In this document: piece after piece, positions 2,918 through 31,219 of the stretch | How the letters are laid out: each line of letters opens with the position of its first letter | Position numbering within the stretch: the first letter of the stretch is position 1 | Source of the DNA: Candidatus Saccharimonadota bacterium | GTDB lineage: Bacteria; Patescibacteriota; Saccharimonadia; Saccharimonadales; Saccharimonadaceae | Length of the DNA: 40,869 bases | Reading direction: 5' to 3' | Assembly (NCBI GenBank): GCA_012270305.1 | Contig: JAAXIO010000021.1 | Location: 1 to 40,869, forward strand | Notes under the pieces: model-generated | What the model was told of the DNA's origin: nothing | Seen by the model: the letters and a program-made list of their open reading frames with translations, nothing else | Database searches by the model: none | Made by a program: the position numbers and the translations under genes

Positions 2918-3054
2918 TGGATAAGCATCAATTCAACGAAAAACCACAAGACCGCCAGCAATACTGGGAACGCCAACTAATAGCAGCTGAAAAGGCAGTG
3001 GAGTATGCAAAACGGCAATTAGCTAAGATAGCTATTAAGGAAACAAATGATTAG
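2917..3054 (+). CDS. Very small charged helical protein
   Basis: 45 residues beginning MDKHQFNEKPQDRQQYWERQ and continuing as a single amphipathic helix. The ATG overlaps the preceding TAA, and an AAAGGAGCG ribosome-binding site lies just upstream. It closes the early small-gene block before the promoter at 3069. Function unknown. Confidence 0.5.
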   Translation: MDKHQFNEKPQDRQQYWERQLIAAEKAVEYAKRQLAKIAIKETND

Positions 3055-3068
3055 TAATTTATCAATAA

Positions 3069-3077
3069 TGCTATAAT
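3069..3077 (+). promoter_or_regulatory. Extended -10 promoter (TGCTATAAT)
   Basis: Perfect TGN-TATAAT at 3069-3077, 37 nt before the ATG at 3114. No good -35 at the right spacing, as expected of extended -10 promoters. Same form as the promoters at 17019, 24273 and 24333. Confidence 0.65.
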
Positions 3078-3113
3078 AGTAAGACTTTAATTTAAAAAAT
3101 AACAGGGGTGGGT

Positions 3114-3287
3114 ATGAACGCTAACACTATTATCAATGACCAAATGACACTTGAAGAAAAGTTAGCGGCTATTGATCTTGCTATGAAAAACGCACAAGAG
3201 CAAGCCAATGAAGAAGCAGCTTCAAGCGGTAAAGTAGTTGCACCACTCGACCCTAGTTTGCTTACTATTTGTGATGGGTGTGAGTAG
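3114..3287 (+). CDS. 57-residue protein with C-terminal CxxC tail
   Basis: ATG 3114 preceded by AGGGGTGGG. A single acidic helix (MTLEEKLAAIDLAMKNAQEQ) is followed by an Ala/Ser linker and the end LDPSLLTICDGCE, putting a CxxC at the extreme C-terminus. It is a single-gene transcription unit lying between the promoter at 3069 and the promoter of the structured RNA at 3307. Too short for the usual gene cut-offs but has promoter, ribosome site and biased composition. Role unknown; a metal- or redox-active tail is a guess. Confidence 0.55.
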   Translation: MNANTIINDQMTLEEKLAAIDLAMKNAQEQANEEAASSGKVVAPLDPSLLTICDGCE

Positions 3288-3306
3288 TGACTTTTTACCC
3301 TGCTTA

Positions 3307-3315
3307 TGCTATACT
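3307..3315 (+). promoter_or_regulatory. Extended -10 promoter of the large structured RNA
   Basis: TGCTATACT at 3307-3315, with a GTGACT -35-like hexamer 17 nt upstream of the TATACT. Predicted transcription start about 3322, 33 nt before the first long helix of the RNA. Confidence 0.65.
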
Positions 3316-3321
3316 ATAAGT

Positions 3322-4086
3322 AGTTTACGGTAGGCAACCAAAACACTCGAATTTAATAAGACTTTCATAGGGACACGCGAATTTTCGTGTGTTCTTTTCT
3401 GGTTATTCCATTCTCCAGATAAGGTGGTGAAACGCAACAGGTGGGTTGTTGCTATATTGGTATGTTGTTAAGTCCATGCCATGTGCCTCACCACCGCCCT
3501 ATGAGGGTCTTATTTTGTTTACATTCTGAATTGTAGGTAGCGATGAGAGCAAGGAAACTGGCTCGGTAGCTCCGAGTGCTGATACTAGGAACAGCAACAG
3601 GTACCGTGACGTAAAAAGAGAAGCATGAGAACTCGCGGCGTTAACTGGTAGGGTTAAACCCCCAGAGGTCTATGACCTTCGCCGTAGAGCCAGGTGATGA
3701 ACTAATCCTGGTATGTCACCTCTCTTCTCTATCTACAACTGTCAAGCATCCGAATGAGGAGATAGGCTAACTACCCCCAGTCTACTCCTTCGTACCTAGG
3801 TTGGTGTGCAGCATAATCCCTATTCAACCTTACAGGCTTATGCACTCCACAGTAAAGTTTCCTTTTGTATCGACTCTACCCCGATATTTTCTTTACTCAC
3901 GCACACCTCCTCATTCGGCTGTTGGATGATACGGTTTTGCTACCCTCGCAGGGGCAAAATCCAACTAACCGCCCGCTGAAGCCCCATAATTTCAACCGCG
4001 TTTTATAGGTCATTAACAAAAGCGTCCTGCACCTTCACTAAATGACCGAGTAGCAACCCTACTTTTGTAACTGTCGTTATGGGGCT
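3322..4086 (+). ncRNA. Giant ornate structured RNA (GOLLD/ROOL-like class or new family)
   Basis: No plausible ORF in about 765 nt, but long complementary segments nest into a compact fold. Domain 1: an 18-bp helix 3355-3372/3497-3514 (two G-U) enclosing 3373-3379/3386-3392, 3398-3402/3415-3419, 3423-3430/3488-3495, 3434-3439/3447-3452 and 3459-3464/3475-3480. Domain 2: 10-bp 3531-3540/3729-3738 enclosing 3562-3566/3572-3576, 3636-3640/3680-3684, 3666-3670/3674-3678 and 3690-3694/3707-3711. Domain 3: perfect 12-bp 3750-3761/3907-3918 enclosing 3811-3816/3838-3843, 3851-3857/3891-3897 and 3868-3872/3882-3886. Then 3921-3927/3959-3965 with 3943-3946/3950-3953, and a 10-bp 3980-3989/4077-4086 enclosing 4008-4014/4041-4047 and 4049-4053/4059-4063. 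A promoter precedes it, and the last helix ends 20 nt before the next ATG. Size, phage location and multi-domain design resemble GOLLD (about 800 nt) and ROOL (about 580 nt). I cannot align it to either, so family is open. Confidence 0.85.
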
Positions 4087-4105
4087 AAGGCCCAAAGGAG
4101 AAACT

Positions 4106-4942
4106 ATGAAATTACCAGCAGTTTACCTATACAAGAAAACCTCAGACAAAGGCCGTGAGCTTAGGTATTCACTACGTTCGCTAGAAAACATCAAGAACTG
4201 GAACGGTGAAGTTTTTGTTGTTGGTGATAGAGAACCATGGATGAACAACCTCACAGTCATTGCTGCCGATAAATACCCGCACAGGTTTTCGGACGTACGT
4301 GCTAAGTACCTTGCTATCACAAGAAGCCCACTCATTCCTAATGATTTTATTCTAATGAATGATGATTTTTTCGTTACCGAAAGAGCTGAAGTTAAACCAC
4401 TTCACCAAGGCGAACTATCAGGCGGCACAAGCTCATGGCAACAATGCAAAGAACGTACAAAGGTATATCTACAATCACAAGGCATAGCAAAGCCACTAGA
4501 TTACGATATTCACGTACCAATGATTATGAACAAAGATAAGCTCGCTGAGGCATTAAAAGCTAATGAGGGAGCAACTGAACATACTTATTTAGCTAATCGA
4601 AGCATATACGGCAACCTACACAAGATCGGTGGTAAAGAATACGTTGATGGCAAGACGAAAAGCAACGCCATTCTAAACCGTGAATTTATATCTACTTCGC
4701 TATACAACGATAAGTTAAATGACTTATTCCCTACTTGTTCAAGATTTGAAATCAAAGGAGAAACTATGCAAAACGTAACACCCACCAAGCACGAAGACGG
4801 CAAAGAAACTGTAACCCTTTGGGGTAAAACTGTAGATGTGACGAAGGTTAAGAAATTCACTCTATTTAAACGTGAGTTCAAAGTAGTACGCCCAAAGAAA
4901 GCTAAGAAGGCAGATGCCGAAAAGACAGACAGCGATGAGTAG
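4106..4942 (+). CDS. Stealth-type glycosyl/sugar-phosphate transferase-like protein with fused C-terminal tail
   Basis: 278 residues from ATG 4106 (AAAGGAGAAACT upstream); an earlier in-frame ATG at 4079 lies inside the last RNA helix and is unlikely. Residues about 18-100 follow the Stealth CR1/CR2 layout: RELRYSLRSLENIKNWNGEV, FVVGDREPWM, then the acidic FILMNDDFFV motif expected to bind a metal and sugar nucleotide or phosphate. YDIHVPMIM at about 135-143 resembles the later conserved HxP segment. Such genes occur in phages beside terminase and may decorate virion or host polymers. The last 58 residues follow KGET-M, which is exactly a translated ribosome-binding site, indicating a fusion to a once-separate small gene. 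Enzyme class likely, substrate unknown. Confidence 0.7.
   Translation: MKLPAVYLYKKTSDKGRELRYSLRSLENIKNWNGEVFVVGDREPWMNNLTVIAADKYPHRFSDVRAKYLAITRSPLIPNDFILMNDDFFVTERAEVKPLHQGELSGGTSSWQQCKERTKVYLQSQGIAKPLDYDIHVPMIMNKDKLAEALKANEGATEHTYLANRSIYGNLHKIGGKEYVDGKTKSNAILNREFISTSLYNDKLNDLFPTCSRFEIKGETMQNVTPTKHEDGKETVTLWGKTVDVTKVKKFTLFKREFKVVRPKKAKKADAEKTDSDE
4766..4942 (+). CDS. Nested in-frame small protein (internal start)
   Basis: The sequence AAAGGAGAAACTATG occurs here exactly as it does before the parent gene at 4106. It lies in frame, so a 58-residue protein (MQNVTPTKHEDGKETVTLWG... ending in a Lys/Asp-rich tail) can be made independently as well as forming the C-terminus of the larger product. 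Short beta-rich start then basic/acidic tail. Function unknown; the internal translation start is inferred from the ribosome-binding site alone. Confidence 0.5.
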   Translation: MQNVTPTKHEDGKETVTLWGKTVDVTKVKKFTLFKREFKVVRPKKAKKADAEKTDSDE

Positions 4943-5403: not shown

Positions 5404-5874
5404 ATGGCAGAAACAAAACATGGTGGAGCTAGAAAAGGAGCTGGCAGGAAGAAAGGCCAGTTAGACCAAAAGACTCTTGATGCAATGGCAGTCAAGAAAG
5501 AATACCAAGACCGCATCAGGCGTAACGCTACAAAGATATTCAATGCTCAGTATTCTCTAGCTGTTGGCACTCAGATGCTATTCGTTATTCATACCGACTC
5601 CAAGGGCAACAGACGCAAACCAGAAATGGTTACTGACCCTGAGATTATTAGCAAGTTCTTAGAAGAGAATGAGGGCATGGCTGGAACTATGGGGGATAAT
5701 GATAGTGAATACTTCTTCATGACAACTAAAGTACCTGATAGCCGCACTATAAGCGATATGTTAGATAGAGCTATGGGTAAGCCTGATGCAACCTTAGATG
5801 TAACGAGTGGCGGGAACGAGCTGAAGACCGCTCTTGTTAGATTTGTAGGCGGAGATGAACCAGGAAAAAAATAA
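5404..5874 (+). CDS. terS: Terminase small subunit (probable)
   Basis: 156 residues. The N-terminal GGARKGAGRKKG motif is typical of phage small terminase subunits of the PBSX/SPP1-like packaging systems, followed by a helical segment with DQKTLDAMAVKKEYQDRIRR. It overlaps the start of the large subunit by 20 nt, the standard terS-terL order. TerS would recognise viral DNA and form the oligomer that loads TerL. The C-terminal two thirds are less characteristic, so the call rests on the motif plus position. Confidence 0.7.
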   Translation: MAETKHGGARKGAGRKKGQLDQKTLDAMAVKKEYQDRIRRNATKIFNAQYSLAVGTQMLFVIHTDSKGNRRKPEMVTDPEIISKFLEENEGMAGTMGDNDSEYFFMTTKVPDSRTISDMLDRAMGKPDATLDVTSGGNELKTALVRFVGGDEPGKK

Positions 5875-7191: not shown

Positions 7192-8529
7192 ATGCAAAAA
7201 AGAACTATCTACACCTTACCAAAAGACACACAAATAGATGGCAAAACTATTGCTAACCTTATCACCTTGCATAAAAAAGATGTTGCCACCTACGCCATAC
7301 TCGAATCCTACATTGACGATGAGCCAACCTCGCAGCGTGAAGCCCCTAACGAAATACTAGCTGTTCACAACTTCGCTGAGTATATTCGTGATACTAATGT
7401 TGGCTATTTACTTGGTAACTCTGTAGACTACAAAGCTAGCGATGAAAGCAAGTTAGATACAATCGTTGAGAAGTATTCAGAGCAATCTATTAGCGAACTC
7501 GACACTGATTTAGCTGAAGATTTGTCTATGTATGGGCAAGCCTTTGAAAATATCTACGTAGATGAGAATACTGAAGTATTGAGCGCGAAATTGAGCGCGT
7601 TTAATACCATTGTCGTTTACGATGATACGTTCAAGCACAATAAGATGTTTGCGGTGTACTACTCACCTCTTGTAGATAGCAAGGGCGTTCTTAGCAAAGA
7701 TTCTTATGACGTTACCATCTGGACTGACACCAAGATAATGGAACGTACGCTAAATAAAGAAACATTGTCTGGTGAAGAAACAAATGATGACATACACACC
7801 TTTGGTGAAGTGCCAGTTGTTCACTACATGAATAACAAGCGTATGAAGGGTGACTATGAGTCTGTTATTAGCCTTATTGATGCCTACAATATACTACAGA
7901 GTGACCGTGTATTAGACCGTGAGAAGCTGGTTGATGCAATCTTAGCTTTCTACGGTGCTTCGATGACACCAGAGGATATGAAAAGCCTTAAAGAGCATCG
8001 TACTATTGGCCTACCCCCTAACTCTAAAGCCGAATACCTCATTAAAGAGATTGATGAAGCCGATGCTGATGTTTTGCGTAAAACCATTGCTGCTGATATT
8101 CACAAGTTTTCTAAGACACCTGACTTTACCGATGAGAAGTTTGGTAACGCCCCTAGTGGTGTATCGCTTAAATATAAGATTCTATCCCTAGAGTGGAACG
8201 CACAGAAAAAAGAACAGCAATTTGCTGCTGGCCTTAAAGACCGCTTCAGGATGTATGTTGAGGTACTTAAACTTGCTTCTAAGCTAAGTGACACTATTAA
8301 CGTGAGCAAAGTTGAAGCCGTGTTCAAACGCTCACTACCTAAGAATGACCTTGAAACTAGCCAAATGATTAACAACCTTGATTCAATCGTTGACCAAGAA
8401 ACTTTGGTGGGCCAACTATCGTTTGTGAAAGACGCTTCTAAAGTCGTTGAAAAGACCAAAGAAGAGCGCGAAGAGTCTTTAGCTAATAATAACTTTGGCA
8501 CTAACCTACCTACTGACGAAGAGGAGTAG
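7192..8529 (+). CDS. Portal protein (SPP1 gp6-like)
   Basis: 445 residues. Position after terL, length and sequence texture fit the SPP1 gp6-like portal family: N-terminal helical YILESYIDDEPTSQ-type region, NVGYLLGNSVDY, the DLSMYGQAFENIYVDE clip-proximal segment, the VVHYMNNKRMKGDYESVISL wing and the SGVSLKYKILSLEWNAQ stem/crown region. Portal dodecamers form the DNA entry vertex and docking site for TerL. The ATG at 7192 is the only in-frame start near the module promoter; it has no obvious ribosome site. The acidic tail ends 3 nt before the MuF gene. Confidence 0.88.
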   Translation: MQKRTIYTLPKDTQIDGKTIANLITLHKKDVATYAILESYIDDEPTSQREAPNEILAVHNFAEYIRDTNVGYLLGNSVDYKASDESKLDTIVEKYSEQSISELDTDLAEDLSMYGQAFENIYVDENTEVLSAKLSAFNTIVVYDDTFKHNKMFAVYYSPLVDSKGVLSKDSYDVTIWTDTKIMERTLNKETLSGEETNDDIHTFGEVPVVHYMNNKRMKGDYESVISLIDAYNILQSDRVLDREKLVDAILAFYGASMTPEDMKSLKEHRTIGLPPNSKAEYLIKEIDEADADVLRKTIAADIHKFSKTPDFTDEKFGNAPSGVSLKYKILSLEWNAQKKEQQFAAGLKDRFRMYVEVLKLASKLSDTINVSKVEAVFKRSLPKNDLETSQMINNLDSIVDQETLVGQLSFVKDASKVVEKTKEEREESLANNNFGTNLPTDEEE

Positions 8530-29889: not shown

Positions 29890-30125
29890 TGAAATACTTG
29901 GCCTATCCAGTAGGCAAAAGTCTTGGTGAAACATTGTTCACTTTAATCGTATTACCCCAAATTCTTATAATAAAATTAAGGGAGTACGCGCATGGGAAGG
30001 CAACTGTCCATAACGGAAGGTTATGGGCTGTATATTCGAGACTTCATCGCTTTCAAAGGCCAATCGGCCAAAACTCAGGAAGCGTATACTTACGCTGGGC
30101 GCGAGTTAGTGAGGCGATTCGGTGA
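29886..30125 (+). CDS. Small membrane-type ORF overlapping the integrase start (doubtful)
   Basis: 79 residues; the ATG overlaps the previous TGA in ATGA form. The first 30 residues contain one hydrophobic helix (GETLFTLIVLPQILIIKL), which lies entirely before the integrase. The last 40 residues are the integrase gene read in another frame. A coupling ORF leading into the integrase is plausible; an independent role is unproven. Confidence 0.35.
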   Translation: MMKYLAYPVGKSLGETLFTLIVLPQILIIKLREYAHGKATVHNGRLWAVYSRLHRFQRPIGQNSGSVYLRWARVSEAIR

Positions 30126-30873
30126 GATTGATATTTGCTCACTCACCTTTGATGATGTGCGCGATTGGAAATTGTGGCTTGATAAAGGCAGATCACCAAA
30201 CACGGTTAGAAACTACATTGTCTGTTTGCGCGTAGTCTTAAAGTTTTTGAGGCAACGCGGATACGAGGTAATGAACCCAGATGATATACCTGTACCTAAG
30301 CGAGAAATTAAGCAGGTTGAATACTTAACAGAAATTGAAATGGAAAACCTATTCAACGAGGTTAAGCGCAAAACACGCGGTTACTCCAATCTTGCCCGCA
30401 CTAGAAACCTAGCTATTATGAAAACCCTCTACGCTACTGGGCTACGCAATAGCGAACTATGCTCACTAGACAGGAATACTATTAAAGAAAATACCTTCAC
30501 TGTTATTGGTAAAGGCAACAAACCCCGCATTTGCTTCATAGATGATGAAAGCCTTGATTGTGTAAAAGATTACTTGAGCCTACGAGATGATAAAAACCCC
30601 GCCCTATTCCTGACCCTAGGCGGTAAAAGGATGAAGCCTGGTGATGTACGCCGTATGTTTGAGATTATTCGCAACCGATCTAGTGATTTTGATTTTATTC
30701 ACCCCCACACCATACGCCACTCATACGCAACCAAGATGCTCAACCGCCGTGTAGATATTCGCTACATCAAGGAATTTATGGGCCACGCCAACCTAGATAC
30801 CACCAACCTATACACTCACGTTACTAACCCTGATTTAAAAGAAATATACCTAAATGCTCACAAACTAGCGTAA
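29992..30873 (+). CDS. int: Tyrosine recombinase (phage integrase)
   Basis: 293 residues, ATG 29992 behind AAGGGAG. The N-terminal SAM-like core-binding domain (AYTYAGRELVRRFGEI, RSPNTVRNYIVCLRVVLKFL) precedes the catalytic domain with R152 (ATGLRNSELC), Lys in GKGNK (about 174), H239 and R242 (HPHTIRHSYAT), H265 (FMGHANLDTT) and nucleophile Y274 (NLYTHV). Length is XerC/D-like and there is no arm-binding domain at the N-terminus, unlike many prophage integrases. It reads towards the tRNA-like element at 30973 just outside the gene, the typical int-att arrangement. Alternative: a chromosomal Xer paralogue. Confidence 0.92.
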   Translation: MGRQLSITEGYGLYIRDFIAFKGQSAKTQEAYTYAGRELVRRFGEIDICSLTFDDVRDWKLWLDKGRSPNTVRNYIVCLRVVLKFLRQRGYEVMNPDDIPVPKREIKQVEYLTEIEMENLFNEVKRKTRGYSNLARTRNLAIMKTLYATGLRNSELCSLDRNTIKENTFTVIGKGNKPRICFIDDESLDCVKDYLSLRDDKNPALFLTLGGKRMKPGDVRRMFEIIRNRSSDFDFIHPHTIRHSYATKMLNRRVDIRYIKEFMGHANLDTTNLYTHVTNPDLKEIYLNAHKLA

Positions 30874-30878
30874 ACGTG

Positions 30879-30907
30879 TTGACAACTTACAAATTCTTTG
30901 CTATGCT
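30879..30907 (+). promoter_or_regulatory. Consensus promoter (TTGACA-17-TATGCT)
   Basis: TTGACA 30879-30884, spacer exactly 17, TATGCT 30902-30907, right after the integrase stop. Predicted start about 30914. Drives a 300-nt non-coding stretch that contains the tRNA-like element and ends at the terminator at 31197. Confidence 0.75.
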
Positions 30908-30972
30908 AAGAGTAGTTTTAAAGGAAACTTTACAATTTGGTAAACTTTATCGGCGGAATAGCCGATGTATGA

Positions 30973-31036
30973 GCGGGCTAAGACAGCTTCCTTGCCATGG
31001 AAGAGGCCAGGAGTTAGAGTCTCCTAACCCGCACCA
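30973..31036 (+). tRNA. D-armless tRNA-Gly(GCC)-like element; probable attR
   Basis: 64 nt ending in an encoded CCA. Acceptor GCGGGCT/AACCCGC (six of seven paired), anticodon arm CTTCC-TTGCCAT-GGAAG with T33 and anticodon GCC (30994-30996), variable AGGCC, T-arm AGGAG-TTAGAGT-CTCCT. Only seven bases (AAGACAG) stand where a D-arm should be, and the T-loop has A in place of invariant C56, whose partner G19 would be in the missing D-loop. Either the 3' remnant of a tRNA-Gly gene at the right attachment site, with phage DNA supplying the 5' part, or a transcribed tRNA mimic. Not expected to be a normal tRNA. Confidence 0.55.
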
Positions 31037-31073
31037 TTGAAACTGCCGGACCATTTGGTTCGGTATTTTCAAT
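31036..31073 (+). terminator. Long hairpin after the tRNA-like element
   Basis: About 16 pairs: 9-bp inner stem 31044-31052/31057-31065 with a 4-nt loop, extended by TTGAAA/TTTTCAA-type pairing. Only a short T-run, so it may be a processing or termination signal. Confidence 0.5.
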
Positions 31074-31120
31074 TCTGGCTGTTGTGACTATCAACTTCTG
31101 GCCTCGTAAAATAAATAATA

Positions 31121-31188
31121 GCCAGGAGTAACTCTTGCGCCAGCCCTTCTGGCTGGGTCAAGAGTCTAGAAGTTTCTAACTCGCACCA
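31121..31188 (+). repeat. Second tRNA-3'-end-like element (degenerate copy)
   Basis: Shares GCCAGGAGT and the ending CTAACyCGCACCAT with the element at 30973. Between them lies a long hairpin (31131-31137/31159-31165 enclosing 31140-31144/31152-31156). The putative T-loop again carries TAGA at positions 55-58. No 5' acceptor half is present. Reads like a decayed second att copy or tRNA relic. Confidence 0.45.
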
Positions 31189-31196
31189 TATAAAAC

Positions 31197-31219
31197 ACAG
31201 CTTAACTGAGCTGTTTTTT
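31197..31219 (+). terminator. Bidirectional terminator between att region and RAYT gene
   Basis: ACAGCT/AGCTGT stem (31197-31202/31209-31214), 6-nt loop, six T. Serves the upstream non-coding transcript; on the minus strand it lies just after the RAYT stop codon. Confidence 0.75.

Follow-up and report, generated by a model that had tools for sequence, protein, structure and literature searches.

The window, by which we mean the whole 40,869-nucleotide stretch of DNA analysed, is contig 35 of a 55-contig, 0.91-Mb genome. An integrated tailed prophage spans about 1 to 30.9 kb of it. Its portal, large terminase (TerL), integrase and endolysin genes, found in a genome of a Patescibacteria order, confirm the phage context proposed in an initial annotation of the sequence; the Saccharibacteria host suggested there is plausible. 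In the prophage, small genes precede a structured region (3307-4091), which is followed by genes for a glycosyltransferase-like protein, a probable small terminase (TerS), TerL and the portal. Beyond the portal gene lie more head and tail genes, assigned by order and mostly without annotation, and genes for the endolysin, a DnaD-like helicase loader and the integrase. TerS was called from position, as its counterpart ORF in the related locus L154 sits just upstream of the L154 TerL gene; it gave no Pfam hit. ARAGORN found no tRNA in the 40.9-kb window, and the prophage therefore has no tRNA island. The features are as follows.

3287..3315, + strand: promoter GTGACT-17-TATACT with an extended -10 (TG before the -10), TATGCTATACT
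3349..3520, + strand: domain D1, 18-bp closing helix around a three-stem multiloop
3371..3394, + strand: terminator-like hairpin GGACACGCGAATTTTCGTGTGTTC followed by TTTTC, dG -12.9, at about +50
3531..3738, + strand: domain D2, 10-bp closing helix, multibranched
3745..3923, + strand: domain D3, perfect 12-bp closing helix, multibranched
3933..3961, + strand: domain D4, 12-bp hairpin
3975..4091, + strand: domain D5, 11-bp closing helix (3980-3990/4076-4086), immediately 5′ of the ribosome-binding site (RBS) of the next gene
4094-4100, + strand: RBS AAAGGAG of the glycosyltransferase-like gene
4106..4942, + strand: glycosyltransferase-like protein (weak Stealth_CR2, PHROG 7999), first gene after the RNA; an alternative start is possible at 4079, within D5
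5404..5874, + strand: probable TerS, 58% identity to the L154 ORF
5855..7123, + strand: TerL
7192..8529, + strand: SPP1-type portal protein
29,992-30,873: integrase

The initial annotation described about 765 nt of ORF-free sequence with several folded domains behind a promoter, and our analyses support a large, structured, non-coding region of this kind. No ORF of at least 60 aa crosses 3307-4078 on either strand, and the sole ORF of at least 50 aa inside the region is 3806-3979 (57 aa). The four long helices of the initial annotation are all present as written: 3355-3372/3497-3514 (18 bp, two of them G-U), 3750-3761/3907-3918 (12 bp, perfect), 3531-3540/3729-3738 (10 bp, one G-U) and 3980-3989/4077-4086 (10 bp, extended to 11 bp in the fold). 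Such complementarities were indeed improbable by chance: among 300 dinucleotide shuffles, one produced an 18-bp helix with G-U pairs allowed and four produced a perfect 12-bp helix. The minimum free energy model contains 45 helices and 239 bp, of which 180 bp sit in helices with a mean pairing probability of at least 0.8.

The + strand of the whole region was more stable than its shuffled versions (z -5.2, 0/20 shuffles equally stable; z -5.1, 0/60 in a repeat). With 200 shuffles per domain, the z scores were -8.3 for D1, -3.6 for D2 and -4.8 for D3 (0/200 each) and -2.5 for D4 and D5 jointly (5/200 as stable), values that are somewhat flattering because the domain edges were picked after folding, the whole-region score being much less sensitive to edge choice. 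The - strand likewise folded better than its shuffled versions (z -3.6), with weaker scores than the + strand in every domain (D1, -7.5; D2, -2.4; D3, -4.4; D4+D5, -1.4). An RNA from the + strand is thus favored, although the - strand is also non-random. In a scan of 40 kb on the + strand, the region had the second-lowest 760-nt mean, the lowest being found around 30.87-31.2 kb. The latter stretch (30874-31218, DNA fold z -5.8) lies between the integrase gene and a gene for a REP-type transposase (Y1-like, judging from its sequence). It is strongly structured and carries a TTGACA...TGCTATGCT that resembles a promoter, a terminator, and two degenerate 3′ halves of tRNA-like sequence that end in GCACCA and in which ARAGORN calls no tRNA. 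Comparable CCA-ended tRNA-like stretches are found upstream of the late promoter in the related loci L224 and L258, next to tRNAs that look genuine, and there is one in L259.

We then considered the two ends of the region. The 43-nt promoter element was matched in 21 of the 29 loci extracted from blastn matches in 198 genomes of the same family; these loci have in common the core CTTATGCTA, with A and T after it. A TTGAC-like -35 often lies in front, and in many cases an ORF begins a short distance downstream. This recurrence across the family of the host makes 3287-3315 credible as the extended -10 promoter that had been called there, with a predicted transcription start at about 3322. The hairpin at 3371-3394 doubles as helix P2 of D1, and its position at +50 and interrupted T-tract (TTTTC) indicate that it may not be a functional terminator. 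At the 3′ end, there is neither a terminator between D5 and the RBS of the glycosyltransferase-like gene nor a visible processing site, and the structured RNA runs directly into the RBS. With no terminator ahead of the operon that follows, the structured RNA is not an isolated gene.

The initial annotation had named GOLLD and ROOL as the known phage RNAs of comparable size and style, and had proposed a new giant RNA class should neither match. No Rfam 15 family, GOLLD and ROOL included, was found in the window at gathering score, and a comparison of 3000-4300 with 4227 Rfam 15 models at E ≤ 10 with lax filters returned just three matches, all at chance level and well short of the gathering scores. 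GOLLD and ROOL are thus excluded to the extent that covariance models permit, and OLE, introns, riboswitches, RNase P and all other families among these models likewise gave no match. The proposed collection of homologues by blastn, on whose covariation a new class would depend, yielded none in phages and plasmids, in the 198 same-family genomes (promoter and chance matches only) or across all collected relative loci. Single-sequence covariance models of D1 (100 loci) and D3 (100 loci and 393 genomes) matched only themselves, with one chance match at E 5.3. Viral contigs, searched for the RNA with short exact patterns only, gave four 17-mer chance matches and then none, and a search of viral contigs for the flanking proteins of the RNA found none.

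Relatives were gathered with TerL (best 58 to 71% identity, viral contigs) and with the portal protein (the closer ones at 43 to 59% identity, from viral contigs and from genomes of the same family). Many of these phages have a promoter of the form TATGGTATAAT (or TGTGATATAAT) ahead of their late genes; none of this type was found in L228, L235 and L239. An intrinsic terminator with a T-tract follows 8 to 19 nt after the predicted start in L265, L267, L261, L259, L258, L242, L224, L226, L148 and L269, which were scored by script, and in L263, which was scored by eye (GGCTCATAACGAGCC-TCTTTTTT; the script chose a later site). The background rate of terminators was 19 in 448 random 90-nt stretches. 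The association of a promoter with an immediate terminator in 11 relatives suggests that their late genes are controlled by read-through near the promoter. The T-tracts are mostly clean and lie at +8 to +19 in the relatives, in contrast with the interrupted one at about +50 in the window. In the five relatives measured, the first late ORF begins 56 to 70 nt after the predicted start, compared with more than 750 nt in the window, whose leader is thus over 10 times longer than those at the same place in related prophages. The order of the parts is the same, with the first gene displaced by more than 750 nt, which argues that the window RNA represents an expansion of the leader.

One relative has a leader of intermediate size. 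In L148, whose TerL is 67% identical to that of the window, the promoter and a terminator at +19 are followed by a structured leader of about 380 nt (383 nt, z -6.4) and then by GroES, GroEL and glycosyltransferase genes. This smaller structured leader points to an expansion like that in the window. In L004, an ORF-free, structured stretch of 530 nt (z -5.5) is flanked by glycosyltransferase genes on one side and by a distinct TerS promoter on the other, and L099 has only a weakly structured 385-nt gap before a GroES-like gene (z -1.3 on that strand in the copy L089). In this phage group, the packaging genes are thus repeatedly accompanied by structured RNAs, which are accessory and share no sequence relationship.

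Other features of the relatives are described here in their own right. A phage-encoded GroEL-like chaperonin is present in L148 (2664-4262, with a GroES-like gene also), L147 (1-1551) and L099, all TerL-related phages, where it is accompanied by several glycosyltransferases directly upstream of TerS/TerL. ORF-poor stretches precede a small membrane-protein-like gene in L101 (4424-4950), L156 (1500-2101) and L104 (2880-3017), whose TerL proteins are about 59 to 60% identical to that of the window. The first two stretches are structured (z about -5) and have short motifs such as GCAGGGTGACTATACGAG in common, that of L101 holding a tRNA-Leu-like D-arm; the third is not clearly structured (z -1.4). 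The RNAs of L004, L148, L101 and L156 have no sequence similarity to that of the window, arguing against a common family. L101 and L104 come from Arthrobacter and L156 is an isolate-derived viral contig; more generally, close terminase relatives (57 to 60%) occur in Arthrobacter, Paeniglutamicibacter and Cryobacterium genomes (L100, L101, L104 and L105). Actinobacteria are known to host Saccharibacteria epibionts, and phage exchange between the two is therefore worth a look.

A separate structured region was detected in L263 (5560-6213, z -8.0), with homologues in L282 to L291. These RNAs of about 470 to 650 nt belong to the family of the window host (genus g2 and one g12 genome). An alignment of ten sequences gave 105 consensus pairs, 44 of them with at least one compensatory change, and the corresponding model matches 10 of 393 genomes, in 2 of 153 genera. 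Some genomes have more than one copy, near a prophage or downstream of the 16S rRNA; the L283 copy lies, by eye, shortly downstream of the 16S rRNA end. A promoter and a short ORF precede the RNA in L263 and L283. No Rfam match was found in L263, and this RNA looks like a member of an undescribed family. The L263 model does not match the window. These bacteria thus do have undescribed large structured RNAs, whatever the window RNA proves to be.

Comparison with the relatives places the window RNA in the leader position of the late operon. Together with the absence of a terminator before the operon genes, this puts a cis-acting leader on at least an equal footing with a free GOLLD-like RNA, and it is the anatomy of the relatives that shifted our interpretation. 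We propose, with a probability of roughly one half, that the RNA is the leader of the prophage late operon, expanded to about 765 nt and controlled by promoter-proximal read-through. Its layout comprises the promoter, the hairpin at about +50, about 690 nt of ORF-free, + strand-favored multi-domain structure and the RBS. According to this model, late transcription in the phage group would be governed by termination and read-through close to the promoter. In the repressed prophage, the polymerase would stop near 3400, with termination predicted at 3394-3402. Upon induction, a read-through complex, perhaps aided by the nascent RNA, would transcribe the entire leader, and its compact domains, D2 to D5 included, might protect or pace the message, or hold the polymerase, ribosomes or a phage protein in cis.

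This arrangement is reminiscent of lambda Q-type control, in which a phage late promoter is followed by a promoter-proximal terminator and antitermination. A promoter and a terminator-like hairpin similarly lie ahead of the packaging and structural genes in the window, and the relatives share this plan. In contrast with the lambda Q type, the window leader is about 765 nt long and elaborately folded, and no antiterminator gene was recognized among the small genes upstream, which counts against a leader. So do the +50 position and interrupted T-tract of the hairpin, the 765 nt of ornate structure, more than a simple leader needs, and the L004 structured RNA, which is not a late-operon leader. 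The put element of phage HK022 is far shorter than the window leader and acts on early genes. Likened by role and not by homology, putRNA, described as a nascent phage RNA element acting in cis on transcription (PMC9378689), illustrates a possible mode of action for the window leader.

An alternative is that the region produces a free giant ornate RNA, a GOLLD- or ROOL-like scaffold or cage during lysis, unrelated in sequence, which would use the late promoter and be cut from the late transcript. GOLLD RNAs are large, ornate and non-coding, occur in phages and prophages, exceed 800 nt in many members and rise in expression at lysis; ROOL, 659 nt long in the solved example, is also found in phages and prophages, often near tRNAs, and has no known protein partner; both assemble without protein (PMC12286853). 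The window RNA resembles GOLLD in being large, ornate, non-coding and prophage-borne, and ROOL in size class and location. Its chain of large domains closed by 10- to 18-bp helices fits such an RNA, as do the L004 and L148 RNAs near the same genes, as expected of accessory cargo. However, the window RNA has no Rfam match, the model for GOLLD covering its conserved 3′ region, and it is not visibly a separate gene, its 3′ end lacking a terminator or visible processing site. There is no tRNA in the window, whereas GOLLD typically, though not obligatorily, lies near a tRNA island or has a tRNA in its linker. GOLLD forms a homo-oligomeric cage, an assembly that is hypothetical for the window RNA. 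Unlike ROOL, the window RNA occupies a leader position ahead of a late operon. A free RNA is therefore possible but doubtful. The two models are not mutually exclusive, as a leader excised from the transcript could act in trans.

It is improbable that the true structured RNA or attenuator is confined to D1 (about 170 nt), with D2 to D5 being ordinary intergenic or decayed sequence that folds by chance. D1, which ends in CTTATTTTGTTT, does give the largest signal, and D4 and D5 alone are marginal. However, D2 and D3 each surpassed all their shuffles, and the region remained stable with D1 left out (3521-4092, z -3.75; 3743-4092, z -4.5; 0/100 shuffles each). The least likely explanation is an element that acts as DNA (a packaging start site, a replication origin or a cluster of protein-binding inverted repeats), with the RNA fold as a by-product. 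In its favor are the stability of the - strand and a location 1.3 kb ahead of the TerS gene, given that the terminase genes of some phages have pac or cos sites nearby. Against it are the nested multibranched helices with G-U pairs, the preference for the + strand in every domain, the promoter directly in front, and the mere 56 to 70 nt available at this place in five relatives.

If the expanded late-operon leader is real, it would represent a large structured phage RNA outside GOLLD, ROOL and OLE, in a bacterial lineage for which a full-text literature search turned up no publications about structured noncoding RNAs. More tentatively, it might belong to a class of giant (about 765-nt) self-folding phage RNAs with no relation to GOLLD or ROOL, produced at the start of the late transcript, whose members would evolve fast or be swapped, such that related phages carry structurally similar, sequence-unrelated RNAs beside their packaging genes; we regard such a class as rather unlikely. 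A real leader of this kind would link a giant RNA to one defined step of the phage program, as the first RNA made upon read-through from the late promoter, and this position would offer a testable handle on the purpose of giant phage RNAs.
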